The notes under the pieces were generated by a model that saw only the letters and a program-made list of their open reading frames with translations, ran no database searches and was not told the DNA's origin. From Bacteroidota bacterium (GTDB taxonomy: Bacteria; Bacteroidota; Bacteroidia; Chitinophagales; JADIYW01): 62,778 bases of DNA. A program made the position numbers and the translations under genes. The stretch lies in assembly GCA_020436225.1 (NCBI GenBank), contig JAGQYE010000049.1, forward strand, positions 1 to 62,778, given 5' to 3'. Shown piece by piece: positions 19,410 through 52,850 of this stretch; the stretch's first letter is position 1; the number at the start of each line of letters is the position of its first letter.

Positions 19410-20429
19410 ATGGATATTCTTGAACAGATTTCTTTAAAATCATACAATACATTCGGACTTGATGTTAAGGCTCAACATTTTTGTGCTATCACTTCAAAAG
19501 AAGATATAGAACAGTTGATTAAAAAGGAATGGAAAAATTTTCATCGACATCTTATTCTTGGTGGCGGAAGCAATGTTTTATTGTGTAAAGATGTGGAAGG
19601 ATTAGTCATTAAAAATAATATTGTAGGAATTGAAATTTTGAAAGAAGATGAAAACAATGTTTGGGTAAAAAGTTATTCCGGCACTACTTGGCATGATGTT
19701 GTTTTATTTTGTGTTGATAAAGGTTGGTATGGTATTGAAAATTTATCTTTAATTCCTGGCACAATTGGTGCCGCACCGATACAAAATATTGGAGCTTATG
19801 GTGCAGAATTAAAAGATGTTTTTGTTGAGTTAGAAGCTATAGATTTAGAAACCGCATCAACTAAAATTTTCACAAAAGAACAATGCCAATTTGGTTATAG
19901 AGACAGCATTTTTAAACACGAAGCCAAAGGAAAATATTTTATCTTTTCAGTTACGCTTAAACTAAGTAAACAACCAAACATCAACATTGCTTACGGAGAC
20001 ATTCAAAAAGTTTTAGAAGAAAAAAACATTCAATCGCCCAATGCAAAAAATATTTCAGATGCAGTCATACAAATACGAGAAAGTAAATTGCCAAATCCGA
20101 AAGACTTGGGCAATGCCGGAAGTTTCTTTAAAAATCCGGAAATAACGACGACTGAATTTAATCGCATACAACAAGTATTTCCGCAAATCCCTAAATACGA
20201 TTTAGCTAATGGAAATAAAAAAATTCCTGCTGCCTGGTTGATAGAACAATGTGGCTGGAAAGGCAAACGCATAGGCGAAACCGGCAACCATGCTAAACAA
20301 GCATTAGTGCTGGTAAATTATGGCAATGCAAAAGGGAATGAAATTTGGCAACATGCCTTGCACGTACAACAATCGGTACAAGAAAAATTTGGGATTTTGT
20401 TAGAACCCGAAGTGAATGTAATTCAGTAA
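19410..20429 (+). CDS. murB: UDP-N-acetylenolpyruvoylglucosamine reductase MurB
   Basis: MurB reduces UDP-GlcNAc-enolpyruvate to UDP-MurNAc with FAD and NADPH, the step after MurA. The 339-residue length matches the E. coli-like type I enzyme. The FAD-binding domain shows NTFGLDVKAQ, GGGSNVLL near residue 51 and IPGTIGAAPIQNIGAYG near 115. The substrate domain has YRDSIFK near 171 and the catalytic GNAGSFFKNP near 232. The last residues, LLEPEVNVIQ, are also typical. Seven bases after its stop codon begins the left copy of a 46-bp direct repeat. Confidence 0.97.
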   Translation: MDILEQISLKSYNTFGLDVKAQHFCAITSKEDIEQLIKKEWKNFHRHLILGGGSNVLLCKDVEGLVIKNNIVGIEILKEDENNVWVKSYSGTTWHDVVLFCVDKGWYGIENLSLIPGTIGAAPIQNIGAYGAELKDVFVELEAIDLETASTKIFTKEQCQFGYRDSIFKHEAKGKYFIFSVTLKLSKQPNINIAYGDIQKVLEEKNIQSPNAKNISDAVIQIRESKLPNPKDLGNAGSFFKNPEITTTEFNRIQQVFPQIPKYDLANGNKKIPAAWLIEQCGWKGKRIGETGNHAKQALVLVNYGNAKGNEIWQHALHVQQSVQEKFGILLEPEVNVIQ

Positions 20430-20435
20430 CAGAAG

Positions 20436-20481
20436 ATTATCTGTATTTATTTTTTACACCTAAGCGTTTTTTAGTGGACTT
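20436..20481. repeat. 46-bp direct repeat, left copy (detached 3' end of the 23233-24195 gene)
   Basis: This 46-base block is identical to 23232-23277. Read on the minus strand it encodes the last 14 codons and stop of the beta-barrel gene at 23233-24195, but no gene body is attached. It marks the left edge of a 2,750-base segment. Confidence 0.93.
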
Positions 20482-20540
20482 CGCCCTCGACGGATCTTCT
20501 GACCCAATTGATTTCCCTCGCACTCGACGGGTCTTGTGAC
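20479..20540. repeat. Two copies of a short GC-rich intergenic repeat
   Basis: Two related 25-base units lie at 20479-20503 and 20516-20540, sharing CTCGACGG, TCTT and TGAC in the same order. A third copy is at 21958-21982. They stand out from the AT-rich surroundings. Confidence 0.6.
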
Positions 20541-20601
20541 GATCGATTTCTCTCTCTTCTATTTTTAAAAAAAACAAAATGGGAGCAATTAAATAAATTA
20601 T

Positions 20602-21909
20602 TTAATTTCCACCATCAAAAGTTGACCATTCGCCAATTATTTTTTTGTTTTTATAGAGCAAAACATTCCTAAAACACAGAATACCATCGCCTTCCCAAGA
20701 TTGTGTAAAAACATAATCATCAATTTTTAAAGTTGATTGTTTGGAACTGCTTAATATACTTTGATTAGGCAACAAGTTTTTATAAGAATTTTCATCGCCA
20801 TCCCAAAATGTATTGTGTTGTATGCCCTTTGGCTCAACTACATTGCCCGGCCAACCTCCGCCCAACATAAAATAGGAAACAGACAAATTTGGATTCCACC
20901 AATTAATAATAGGCGAAATAGATTCTACAAGAGGTAATTTTGCAGTTTCAATTTTCTTTAAAACACAAGATGCTAAAAATGATGCCGGTTGATGTCCATA
21001 GTTATATAATTCCGGAAAAAGATTGGGAGTTAAAAATCCTGAACCTATGGCAATATCATTAACCCTCATTTTGCCACTATAGTTTTTATAATAGAAATAA
21101 GTTCTAGTGCCACCACTATTGAAAATCATTGAATCAAGTATTTGTTTTGAATAATTTTTTTCCAATATATCTACAAAAGCGTTATATCTATTTTGTGCAT
21201 CAGCAAATGCTTTTTCAATTTGTTTATTTTTATTGATGTAAAAAGGCACATACGGCACATGACCATCGTAGCCCATTAATCCTTTTAATTCTAAATAGTT
21301 TGGATTAGCTTTTATTTGGTTTACAATTTGTTCTATTTGTTCAGCGTTGTCAAATCCGCCACGTTGCAAGCCAATATTGATTTCTAAAGCAATTTTTAAT
21401 TTTGTTTGTGTAGATTTTGCCAAAGCTAAGTACTCGTTTAATCGTTTTTCTGTATCGATTAACCAACAAACAGAATTCCATTTTTTTAGATTTGACAAAC
21501 GATAAACAGCATCAACAGGCAATGGTTTTCCTAATAAAATATCCAGCGTATCAGCCGAATACTTGTTTAATATTTCAGCAATAAAAGGTTCAGAAAATAC
21601 CATTAAACTTTTGGTATTTGCATTTTTCATTAGGTAGTCTAAAAGTTCAAATGAAGGCAAGGATTTTGTAACTAACCGCAAATTAAAACGATTACCTAAA
21701 TGATTTTTTATAGTAGCAATATTATTGTCTAATCTGTTTAAATCTATTATGGCATGGCTTGCTCCTTTGGCTTGTCTTTGTAATGCCAAATTGAGTTCTA
21801 TGAAGTAACTATCAGAATAATAGCATTTTTCAAGTTTTGGTTTCTTGAAAAACAGAAACAAAAAGCATAAAAGAATAATTATAATAAATGCTTTTAAAAA
21901 TCTTTTCAT
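20602..21909 (-). CDS. Membrane-anchored alanine racemase-like (fold III PLP) protein
   Basis: The start at 21909 gives an N-terminal membrane anchor (about residues 4-22) and agrees with a promoter element only five bases upstream. The main domain resembles the alanine racemase N-terminal/D-serine dehydratase-like PLP barrel: IDLNRLDNNIATIKNHLG, then RLVTKS with the likely PLP lysine near residue 79, EINIGLQRGG near 185, and LMGYDGHV near 215. The C-terminal part contains a GGGWPGNVVEPKG stretch and ends in a beta domain. Substrate and reaction are unknown. An anchored, probably periplasm-facing PLP enzyme would be unusual. It lies in the bracketed segment but has normal AT-rich composition. 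Confidence 0.7.
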   Translation of the reverse strand: MKRFLKAFIIIILLCFLFLFFKKPKLEKCYYSDSYFIELNLALQRQAKGASHAIIDLNRLDNNIATIKNHLGNRFNLRLVTKSLPSFELLDYLMKNANTKSLMVFSEPFIAEILNKYSADTLDILLGKPLPVDAVYRLSNLKKWNSVCWLIDTEKRLNEYLALAKSTQTKLKIALEINIGLQRGGFDNAEQIEQIVNQIKANPNYLELKGLMGYDGHVPYVPFYINKNKQIEKAFADAQNRYNAFVDILEKNYSKQILDSMIFNSGGTRTYFYYKNYSGKMRVNDIAIGSGFLTPNLFPELYNYGHQPASFLASCVLKKIETAKLPLVESISPIINWWNPNLSVSYFMLGGGWPGNVVEPKGIQHNTFWDGDENSYKNLLPNQSILSSSKQSTLKIDDYVFTQSWEGDGILCFRNVLLYKNKKIIGEWSTFDGGN

Positions 21910-21914
21910 TAGCA

Positions 21915-21922
21915 CAAATATA
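21915..21922 (-). promoter_or_regulatory. -7 element immediately before the racemase-like gene
   Basis: The minus strand reads TATATTTG here, an exact TAnnTTTG match. Only five bases separate it from the ATG at 21909, which predicts a leaderless or near-leaderless transcript. Confidence 0.45.
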
Positions 21923-21957
21923 AGCATCAAAAAGTTGACTCTAAAAAATTAAATGAT

Positions 21958-21986
21958 CTTCGCCCTCTACGAGTCTTATGACTCGT
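21958..21986. repeat. Third copy of the short intergenic repeat, with perfect hairpin
   Basis: This copy matches the units at 20479 and 20516. It contains a perfect seven-base stem (21969-21975 with 21980-21986) around TTAT. Confidence 0.6.
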
Positions 21987-22076
21987 TCAACTAACAAGAT
22001 ATTTTTTCATTTTATAATACGCACCTATTGTTGGATAAAATTTGCCACGCTGCGCTCGCTATGACGGGAAATTATG

Positions 22077-23096
22077 TTACCACTTATTAAACACATCTTC
22101 TGCAAAGCCTAAAAATCTGTTCAGTTTTATCGGAGTACCATCATCCAGAATCACCGTCCCTGTAAAATAGCCGAACACCTGATGTTGTTTGGATTGCAGC
22201 AGTATTAGGTTTGTATTGGAATAACGGTCAATCGCGGGTTCAAAGTCGAGTTCGAAACGGCCGTCGTTGCTCGTAAACTTCCACGGCTGCATATAATCAC
22301 TGGTGTTGATGACGAATTTTATTTCATCCAGTTTGTGTGCCACGCCCTTATAAAACAACATATTTTCCGTTGCAGCCGAGGTATCACCGAAACCATAGCC
22401 GATATTAAACCCAAAGGGTTTACCATCCACATAACCTGAAGCGGAGCCCCAGTACCAGCGGTTTTGATAGGTCCACACGCCGCGTCCCCAGTCCAGCACA
22501 CCTAATGCCTGATGAGGTTCAAAGGTGTATTTCTTTTTGTCATAGATAAATTCACCGCTTGCTGCCAGGCAATTTATTTTCTGGTTGTAGTAAAACGCCA
22601 ATTTGTCTTCTTTCCACGGCGTGGCTATCACCATGGAATCTTTGTTCAGCGCTTCCAGTTCAATATGACCTTTAATACCTTTCCCCTTATTAAATCCTGG
22701 AAAATTAAAATCTAGTACCCGCTTGCCGTCCACATGCCTGAACTGCATCTGCACTTTCTTATGCTGAACAACCGTATCGCCCACAGCTGAATGCTCCGGC
22801 AGGTGCAGTTTGCCCATGGTAAAAGGCACCATCACCATATCGGTGATTTCCTTGTTCTGTTTAAAATCAAACACATTGATAGCATACAAGGCCATATAGG
22901 AATTATCCGCCACGGTGAGTGCAATACCGTAGTCTTTCTGCAGGATGCAATAATAATCCCATTCCTTGATTCTTAGTGGTGACGCCTTTATGTCGCTGCG
23001 TTTATAGGTCAGCATTAAACTTCTAGCCCAGCCTTTCTGCGCAAGATTGCCATCTGCATTCAATAAAGGACCTGCCTTAGTAATTTCATGTTGCAT
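22077..23096 (-). CDS. DUF2804 family protein, GC-rich relative to neighbours
   Basis: The 339-residue protein has no signal peptide or membrane segment. It shows the DUF2804 pattern: an N-terminal block (ITKAGPLLNADGNLAQKGWARS), a middle region with DKKKYTFEPHQALGVLDWGRGVW near residues 180-200, and FGFNIGYGFGD near 228. The ends are beta-rich. The family has no established biochemical function. Base composition is clearly higher in GC than in the flanking genes: sampled 60-base lines give 43% and 65% here against 28% in the adjacent racemase-like gene. This, with the flanking repeats, suggests acquisition from another genome. Confidence 0.8.
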   Translation of the reverse strand: MQHEITKAGPLLNADGNLAQKGWARSLMLTYKRSDIKASPLRIKEWDYYCILQKDYGIALTVADNSYMALYAINVFDFKQNKEITDMVMVPFTMGKLHLPEHSAVGDTVVQHKKVQMQFRHVDGKRVLDFNFPGFNKGKGIKGHIELEALNKDSMVIATPWKEDKLAFYYNQKINCLAASGEFIYDKKKYTFEPHQALGVLDWGRGVWTYQNRWYWGSASGYVDGKPFGFNIGYGFGDTSAATENMLFYKGVAHKLDEIKFVINTSDYMQPWKFTSNDGRFELDFEPAIDRYSNTNLILLQSKQHQVFGYFTGTVILDDGTPIKLNRFLGFAEDVFNKW

Positions 23097-23099
23097 ACG

Positions 23100-23164
23100 T
23101 GAGAGTCTTCTTCAAGAGATTCTGCTAAGAAAATTTTTCTTTATCGGTCGGTGTCCTCACCGAC
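23100..23164. repeat. Dispersed intergenic repeat with hairpins
   Basis: Bases 23102-23133 align with the complement of 52736-52766, sharing GAGTC, eight variable bases, then GAGA and TCTGCT in the same spacing. It is followed by a perfect seven-base hairpin (23147-23153 with 23158-23164, loop TCCT). Confidence 0.55.
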
Positions 23165-23205
23165 AGAAAAATTAAATCAGAAAGATTATTCAAATACAAA
23201 TTAAC

Positions 23206-23234
23206 GAGATTTCCGCTTCTGCGGGAATGACATT
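23206..23234. repeat. 29-base intergenic repeat unit at the right edge of the segment
   Basis: The unit starts GAGATTTCC and ends GGGAATGACATT with a short inverted repeat between. A second copy of the same length is at 52822-52850. Its last three bases overlap the right copy of the 46-bp repeat. Confidence 0.65.
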
Positions 23235-23277
23235 ATCTGTATTTATTTTTTACACCTAAGCGTTTTTTAGTGGACTT
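23232..23277. repeat. 46-bp direct repeat, right copy
   Basis: Identical to 20436-20481. Here it forms the genuine 3' end (last 14 codons plus stop) of the beta-barrel gene on the minus strand. Confidence 0.93.
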
Positions 23278-24195
23278 ATCCACTTCATCTACACGTTTAT
23301 TCAAATCTATTCCCGGAACTTTTGATTTTTTCAATTTTGCTTCTTCTGCTTTTTTTGCTTTTTTCTTTTCAGCCATTGCAGTCATCTTAGCACGTTGGAA
23401 ATTGTAACCAATCTCCAAATTCAAGCCTAAGAAATAATTTTTAGATTTTTTATATTCAGGATGTACTTTATATTCAGCAGCATTGATATCGTTTAATCCA
23501 AATTTAGTTTCTAAGGCAAAGCCCATATACATATTATTTTTGAAGATGTAATCCAATCCAAATTTTATAACACCAACTCCTTGAACTTTCTTAAAATAAG
23601 ATTTATAATTATCACTTTGATTTGGATAATATGAGGCATATCCACCCAATGCTGGATCTATTGGGTAACCCATAACTGTAGTATTACCATTATTAGGCGT
23701 AATCTTATACGTCATTTGTGCGTTGATTAAAAAATCTGTTTCGATACCTACCAATAATTTCATTCGAACAGGGAAATTATCTGAAGCAACTCTAATATGT
23801 TCTTTTTGTCCGCGCAATAATGGTGCAAAACGATATAACAGGCCGGCACCCATATATTTGAAATCTACATTTTTTTCGTGTGTACCAATTAATGCCGGAT
23901 ATTTCAACCATTTGAATTCATCTTTATAACGCTGCCCTTCTTGGCAATAGTTGGCATAAACTACAAAACCGTGTTGTTCTTTAAAATTATAGCCACCTTG
24001 CATAAAAACATGGTAACTGAATTTTGGTTTGTAATCTAATTCTTTGCTGTTTTCTGCTAAATAGTATGTGTTTTGTGCCAACATATATGACAATCCCGGC
24101 GTAACACCTACACTTAAACTTCCACCTTTTTGTGCATAAGTAAAACTTATGGTAAAAAATATGGTAAAAATGCTGCCAAAAATTCTTAGTTTCAT
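23233..24195 (-). CDS. Outer-membrane beta-barrel protein
   Basis: The ATG at 24195 gives a signal peptide (residues 1-21, ending SFTYAQ) and was chosen over an upstream TTG at 24210. The 320-residue protein has glycine- and aromatic-rich strands throughout (for example YMGAGLLYRFAP and YFLGLNLEIGYNFQR), so it is probably an outer-membrane barrel. The C-terminus is a highly basic Lys/Ala tail (about 265-320). No family name was recognised. Its final codons are duplicated next to murB, which suggests that murB and this gene were adjacent and convergent before the 2.75-kb segment arrived. Confidence 0.7.
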   Translation of the reverse strand: MKLRIFGSIFTIFFTISFTYAQKGGSLSVGVTPGLSYMLAQNTYYLAENSKELDYKPKFSYHVFMQGGYNFKEQHGFVVYANYCQEGQRYKDEFKWLKYPALIGTHEKNVDFKYMGAGLLYRFAPLLRGQKEHIRVASDNFPVRMKLLVGIETDFLINAQMTYKITPNNGNTTVMGYPIDPALGGYASYYPNQSDNYKSYFKKVQGVGVIKFGLDYIFKNNMYMGFALETKFGLNDINAAEYKVHPEYKKSKNYFLGLNLEIGYNFQRAKMTAMAEKKKAKKAEEAKLKKSKVPGIDLNKRVDEVDKSTKKRLGVKNKYR

Positions 24196-24248
24196 TGCGA
24201 AAAAATTCAATTTAAAAATAGGTATTTATTTTTCATTAACCAGAACAT

Positions 24249-52770: not shown

Positions 52771-52821
52771 AAATTTAATAAGAAAGCATCCTTTTAAGAG
52801 ACACTGCTAAAAATTGAAAAT

Positions 52822-52850
52822 GAGATTTCCTATTTCGTGGGAATGACATT
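52822..52850. repeat. Second copy of the 29-base intergenic unit
   Basis: Same length as 23206-23234, with identical ends GAGATTTCC and GGGAATGACATT and a variable middle of eight bases. Confidence 0.65.

Follow-up and report, generated by a model that had tools for sequence, protein, structure and literature searches.

A 2,750-bp segment carrying two genes lies directly behind the stop codon of a beta-barrel outer-membrane protein gene in a Bacteroidota genome, between two identical 46-bp copies of that gene's 3' end. We propose that it is a gene islet bordered by REP palindromes, inserted behind the stop codon with a long target duplication through a REP-linked process that also acted at three other loci of the same genome (contigs C50, C10 and C69). 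We put the probability of this reading at roughly 0.55.

An exact repeat of a gene end brackets two genes

The window (the whole 62,778-nucleotide stretch of DNA that was analysed) contains the following features in and around the segment.

19410..20429, + strand: murB (Pfam MurB_C, 4e-30), left partner of the convergent junction that preceded the insertion
20436..20481, - strand: detached duplicate of the final 46 bp of the barrel gene, an exact repeat and a unique pair in the genome
20602..21930, - strand: cargo gene 1, a membrane-anchored alanine-racemase-N-like protein with an N-terminal hydrophobic stretch (PF01168, 5.8e-16)
22077..23096, - strand: cargo gene 2, a DUF2804 protein (PF10974, 1.7e-144)
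23232..23277, - strand: authentic 3' end of the barrel gene (14 codons, TAA and 1 nt); the insertion point is 1 nt past the stop
23233..24210, - strand: beta-barrel outer-membrane protein gene (PF13568), the target gene, 81% identical in G005

Sequence comparison within the window shows that 20436-20481 and 23232-23277 agree letter for letter over 46 bp. A 101-bp query spanning the left copy found two places only in the 2.69-Mb genome, and a chance match of this kind is effectively impossible. The exact direct repeat around 2,750 bp that a reading of the sequence alone had reported (hereafter the sequence-only reading) is thus real. The reading frame likewise agrees with its view that the right copy is the true barrel-gene end, 14 codons plus stop, and the left copy a detached duplicate behind murB. 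The left copy begins at the seventh base past the murB stop, with six bases intervening. The spacer (20482-23231, 2,750 bp) holds the Ala_racemase_N gene, the DUF2804 gene and several palindromic repeats. These two genes are its whole gene content, so the sequence-only reading was also correct that an anchored racemase-like gene and a DUF2804 gene lie inside and that no recombinase does. Dispersed intergenic repeats are indeed present at both borders, which it had described as touched by repeats.

Relatives carry the junction without the insert

In six genomes of the same genus (G001-G006), murB and the barrel gene adjoin each other convergently, about 7-60 bp apart. The insert is, by this sequence comparison, derived, because all six have the murB/barrel junction without it. 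The sequence-only reading had taken a single convergent junction to be ancestral and had proposed looking for relatives with one copy and no insert; these six genomes are such relatives.

The nearest relative, G005 (record KLAP121), is collinear with window positions 1-31,796, and the sole large break is the insert. DNA near the insert is 72-74% identical to G005, differing at about one quarter of bases, and the barrel 3' end in G005 matches the 46-bp stretch at 87% over 39 bp. The duplication most likely arose recently and within this lineage, since its two copies are letter-identical while G005 has diverged nearby.

The DUF2804 gene occupies three loci within the genus

Between the genome that holds the window (G000) and G005, the DUF2804 protein is 96% identical and its coding DNA 93% identical. 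Synonymous divergence (dS) between the same two genomes is 0.33 for the DUF2804 gene and 1.79 for the barrel gene, and GC3 is 0.50 versus 0.25. Moreover, DUF2804 occupies three different loci within one genus. In G003 and G006 it sits at a shared locus that is empty in G000 and G005, between two genes that we take, from our own reading of the sequences, to be epoxide-hydrolase-like and PhoD-like. In G005 it is placed between a histidine kinase gene and an aminotransferase gene; in G000, G004, G006, G002 and G001 that junction is empty. Low dS, deviating GC3 and the three loci together identify the DUF2804 gene, on sequence grounds, as foreign and horizontally acquired. Relatives of the racemase-like gene are more distant and patchy in distribution, at other, unrelated loci in G003 and G012.

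The homologous block common to G000 and G005 runs from inside a REP of the family that we call D to 5 bp before the DUF2804 ATG. REP families were defined by eye and with fuzzy patterns, so counts are approximate; D REP matches are common in G000 (17) and rare in G005 (3). This scarcity in G005 and frequency in G000 hint at transfer from a D-rich lineage. At the G005 locus (contig C12, stretch L077, 7886-7950 and 9071-9135), DUF2804 is bracketed by a 65-bp direct repeat, 80% identical, that includes D-REP sequence. Relatives of either cargo gene were not found in viral contigs, and on this basis a phage origin of the insert was rejected.

REP palindromes lie at and within the insert

Palindromes of several families occupy both edges of the insert and the spaces between its genes.

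20479..20542, - strand: pair of decayed D-family REPs of the GTAG type, whose terminus GGGCGAAG runs 3 nt into the 46-bp repeat
20518..20578, - strand: match to the upstream end of the RAYT element on contig C50 of the same genome (86% over 62 bp)
21949..22076, - strand: D-family REP and CGCTCGC-type palindrome downstream of DUF2804, common to G005 (84% over 122 bp with contig C12)
23102..23134, + strand: A-family REP, the REP of the RAYT on contig C37, by sequence matches to dispersed copies
23130..23173, + strand: B-family palindrome TCGGTCGGTG..CACCGACAG, a predicted DNA hairpin
23200..23234, + strand: C-family (CGTC/dRS3-like) palindrome touching the right border, with dispersed copies, 0 bp from the 46-bp repeat

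The left-border REPs, at 20483-20505 and 20520-20542, have 2 and 3 mismatches in 23 to GGGTCACAAGACCCGTCGAGGGC. The left border belongs to family D and the right border to family C; the insert is not bounded by inverted REPs of one family. Family C has the CGTC/TGTC tag, an 8-9 bp stem starting with AT and the dispersed occurrence by which CGTC-tagged REPs are defined (PMC3733652). Another, more diverged family C palindrome lies at 52819-52850 of the window.

Inverted copies of family D (GGTAGTCGAACGGGTCACAAGACCCGTCGAGGGCGA) lie on either side of a gene on contig C50 that scores above the NCBIfam NF047646 cut-off for REP-associated tyrosine transposases (RAYTs), and family A flanks a second RAYT on contig C37. 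Of the border palindromes, only those at the left are REPs that flank a RAYT in the same genome. The C50 RAYT has the motifs NHLH, WQ and YIHNNP of subclass 2.6, which is found mostly in Bacteroidetes (PMC6006769). Close relatives of this RAYT lie on contigs C50 of G000, C373 of G006 and C39 of G004, and their neighbour genes differ by species. That closely related RAYT genes adjoin different genes in different species suggests that the RAYT unit itself has moved. On contig C37 (stretch L314, 10153-11900), the RAYT 3' end plus its REP recurs at about 0.9 kb and again at about 1.1 kb downstream, a 166-aa ORF lying in between.

Gene-end duplications recur at REPs

Gene-end duplications with a REP at the border recur in this genome. 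On contig C50, 25 bp of a gene 3' end stand on both sides of the RAYT element; from its translated end, the gene looks to us like dtd (D-Tyr-tRNA deacylase). Both there and in the window, the D terminus GGGCGAA abuts the detached copy. On contig C10, a 24-bp end of a PLP-enzyme gene occurs in three copies with A-family REP pairs interspersed between them; G005 has the bare junction, an empty site. On contig C69, about 45 bp of an ORF end is duplicated around A-family REPs; with only 34 codons in the frame read, this ORF is less surely a gene. Each of the four gene-end insertions lies 1-5 nt past TAA. The duplications vary in length (24, 25, about 45 and 46 bp) and are unrelated in sequence between sites. 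A further duplication, around a D REP on contig C82, is intergenic.

We scanned about 1.1 Mb of sampled genome stretches for exact direct repeats of at least 18 bp in non-REP, non-CRISPR sequence. At 8 of 20 such loci a REP lies no more than 40 bp from an inner edge, versus 0.8% of random positions, an enrichment that may partly reflect a sample rich in stretches with known REPs and the tandem duplication of REP clusters with their flanks (PMC3116915). Long flanking duplications are absent from most of the 51 REP clusters sampled; with only a few having long ones right at their edges, we rejected a universal target duplication by REPs.

The nearest relative offers a comparable case. In G005 (contig C7, stretch L241, 11505-11570 and 12533-12598), an exact 66-bp duplication of the 3' end of an Lrp-like regulator gene, with weaker similarity continuing upstream, surrounds a 294-codon gene without a Pfam match, and no obvious REP lies at the borders. 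G004 lacks the 294-codon gene, and its regulator still adjoins the following gene. With its 66-bp duplication and lack of an obvious REP, this gene-bearing insert suggests that repair may duplicate gene ends more widely.

The genome also has a CRISPR-like array of 46-47 bp repeats at 76-bp spacing, on contigs C2 (stretch L303, 19027-19606) and C25 (stretch L310, 40-161). We rejected off-target integration by CRISPR Cas1-Cas2: the array has no similarity to the 46-bp repeat, the insert far exceeds spacer length and other duplications are 24-25 bp.

How the insert may have arisen

We infer that the window, C50, C10 and C69 cases share one process. In the islet reading, a 2.75-kb unit comprising the racemase-like gene and the foreign DUF2804 gene, with REP palindromes between them and at the edges, would have landed one base past the barrel-gene stop codon. 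Insertion, or the repair of it, would have placed a copy of the last 46 bp of the target on the far side, so that the barrel gene keeps an intact end and a detached 3'-end copy is left beside murB. The unit may have arrived whole or have grown within an earlier REP insertion. Most likely, the REP terminus was where a strand became joined, and copying then resumed a few dozen bases further upstream in the target, by repair synthesis or by template switching. The same REP-linked process would have produced the 24-45 bp gene-end duplications at the C50 RAYT element and at the C10 and C69 REP pairs.

It is plausible that a RAYT cuts or joins the ends. The D terminus common to the window and C50 and the insertion of the RAYT element itself count for such a role. 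Against it, one RAYT would not obviously recognise both a D-family and a C-family REP, the two types found at the borders, and for CGTC-type REPs a transposase is not known (PMC3733652). IS200/IS605 elements, moreover, are stated to make no larger target duplications (PMC2817692). The D REPs of the window carry 2-3 mismatches in 23, whereas the 46-bp copies show none, so these REPs look older than the insertion; they may be passengers, and their decay argues against RAYT catalysis. A stronger claim would be that subclass 2.6 RAYT systems of Bacteroidota move REP-edged gene cassettes within and between genomes, placing them just behind stop codons and preserving the target gene by duplicating 24-46 bp of its end; we consider it improbable.

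If the REPs are indeed passengers, a chromosomal or incoming block could have been captured at a broken fork by RecA-independent repair (template switching or end capture), a backward slip giving the 46-bp duplication and the REPs marking fragile, hairpin-forming sites where blocks break. Decayed border REPs of two families, duplications that differ in length (24, 25, about 45 and 46 bp) and the comparable G005 gene-end duplication without an obvious REP all fit this account. Against it count the D-REP terminus that abuts the detached copy both in the window and at C50 and the RAYT element that is itself among the inserted units, and we regard it as a possible but somewhat unlikely explanation. 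Site-specific integration is much harder to reconcile with the data. The sequence-only reading had likened the repeat to attachment-site duplications, and a restored gene 3' end with direct repeats at both ends is what integrase elements leave; a defective mobile element could then have been integrated in trans at a 46-bp att core. Yet the insert has no integrase and no recognisable phage or plasmid gene, neither cargo gene has a viral relative, REP palindromes, not an att core, form the borders, and the pattern recurs in the genome at 24, 25 and about 45 bp in unrelated sequence. Furthermore, the two copies agree letter for letter, although the site has diverged among relatives and the G005 stretch matches at only 87% over 39 bp, which makes an imported attP copy unlikely. 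The likeness to attachment sites is not supported, and we judge integration of this kind very unlikely.

A Campbell-type single crossover of a circle carrying the cargo and a barrel 3'-end fragment would predict exactly one attached and one detached 3'-end copy, and recombination between REPs could circularise the cargo. Such a circle requires a donor with the cargo already beside a barrel 3' end, however, and none was found in the genomes searched; 46 bp, or 24-25 bp elsewhere, is also short for RecA, which leaves this route with little credibility. An assembly artefact that joined two loci through a common 46-bp word is least credible of all. The assembly is fragmented and MAG-like (141 contigs), but a false join would still require a second real 46-bp copy, collinearity with G005 holds on both sides, and similar duplications exist elsewhere in the genome and in the independent G005 assembly.

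Significance

The literature consulted describes RAYTs as domesticated, without evidence of gene movement (PMC8266576), and says that related elements do not produce larger target duplications (PMC2817692). Here, at least four duplicated gene ends with a REP at the edge occur in one genome; of these, one encloses a RAYT itself and another a pair of cargo genes. These are insertion products, two with empty sites in relatives, that can be used to test what RAYTs do. The islet reading suggests a route by which single genes such as DUF2804 could enter genomes without an integrase, the gene at the landing site remaining unbroken. Were RAYTs to move cassettes in this way, genes could be gained without an integrase or a classical transposase.

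Comparison with known systems

Genomic islets of the integrase type also insert at gene 3' ends, leave an intact end and a detached copy, and have an empty site in relatives, as here in G001-G006. Unlike them, the insert has no integrase, its borders are REPs and the duplication differs in sequence and length between sites. Composite transposons and IS-bounded islands resemble it in carrying cargo genes between repeats with a target duplication. The target duplications known for DDE transposases are short, up to about 14 bp; the duplication here is far longer, and no IS is present.

IS200/IS605 transposons are said to produce no larger target duplication (PMC2817692), in contrast to the 46 bp seen here and the 25 bp around the C50 RAYT element. 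REPINs and REPtrons (REPs with a RAYT, an IS200/IS605-like Y1 HUH transposase) are alike in having palindromes dispersed genome-wide, some of which flank a RAYT gene in inverted orientation. Pseudomonas fluorescens is described as having tandem REPIN clusters whose flanks are duplicated (PMC3116915), and the mobility of tnpAREP is said to lack evidence (PMC8266576). What sets the present case apart is a 2.75-kb two-gene segment between REPs and a duplicated target-gene end of 24-46 bp. Finally, family C (TGTCATTCCCGC..GCGGGAATCTCATT) fits the CGTC-tagged REPs and Neisseria dRS3 in tag, stem length and AT start, and CGTC repeats have been reported in Bacteroidetes (PMC3733652). Unlike in those systems, one such repeat here forms the right edge of a gene-bearing insert.
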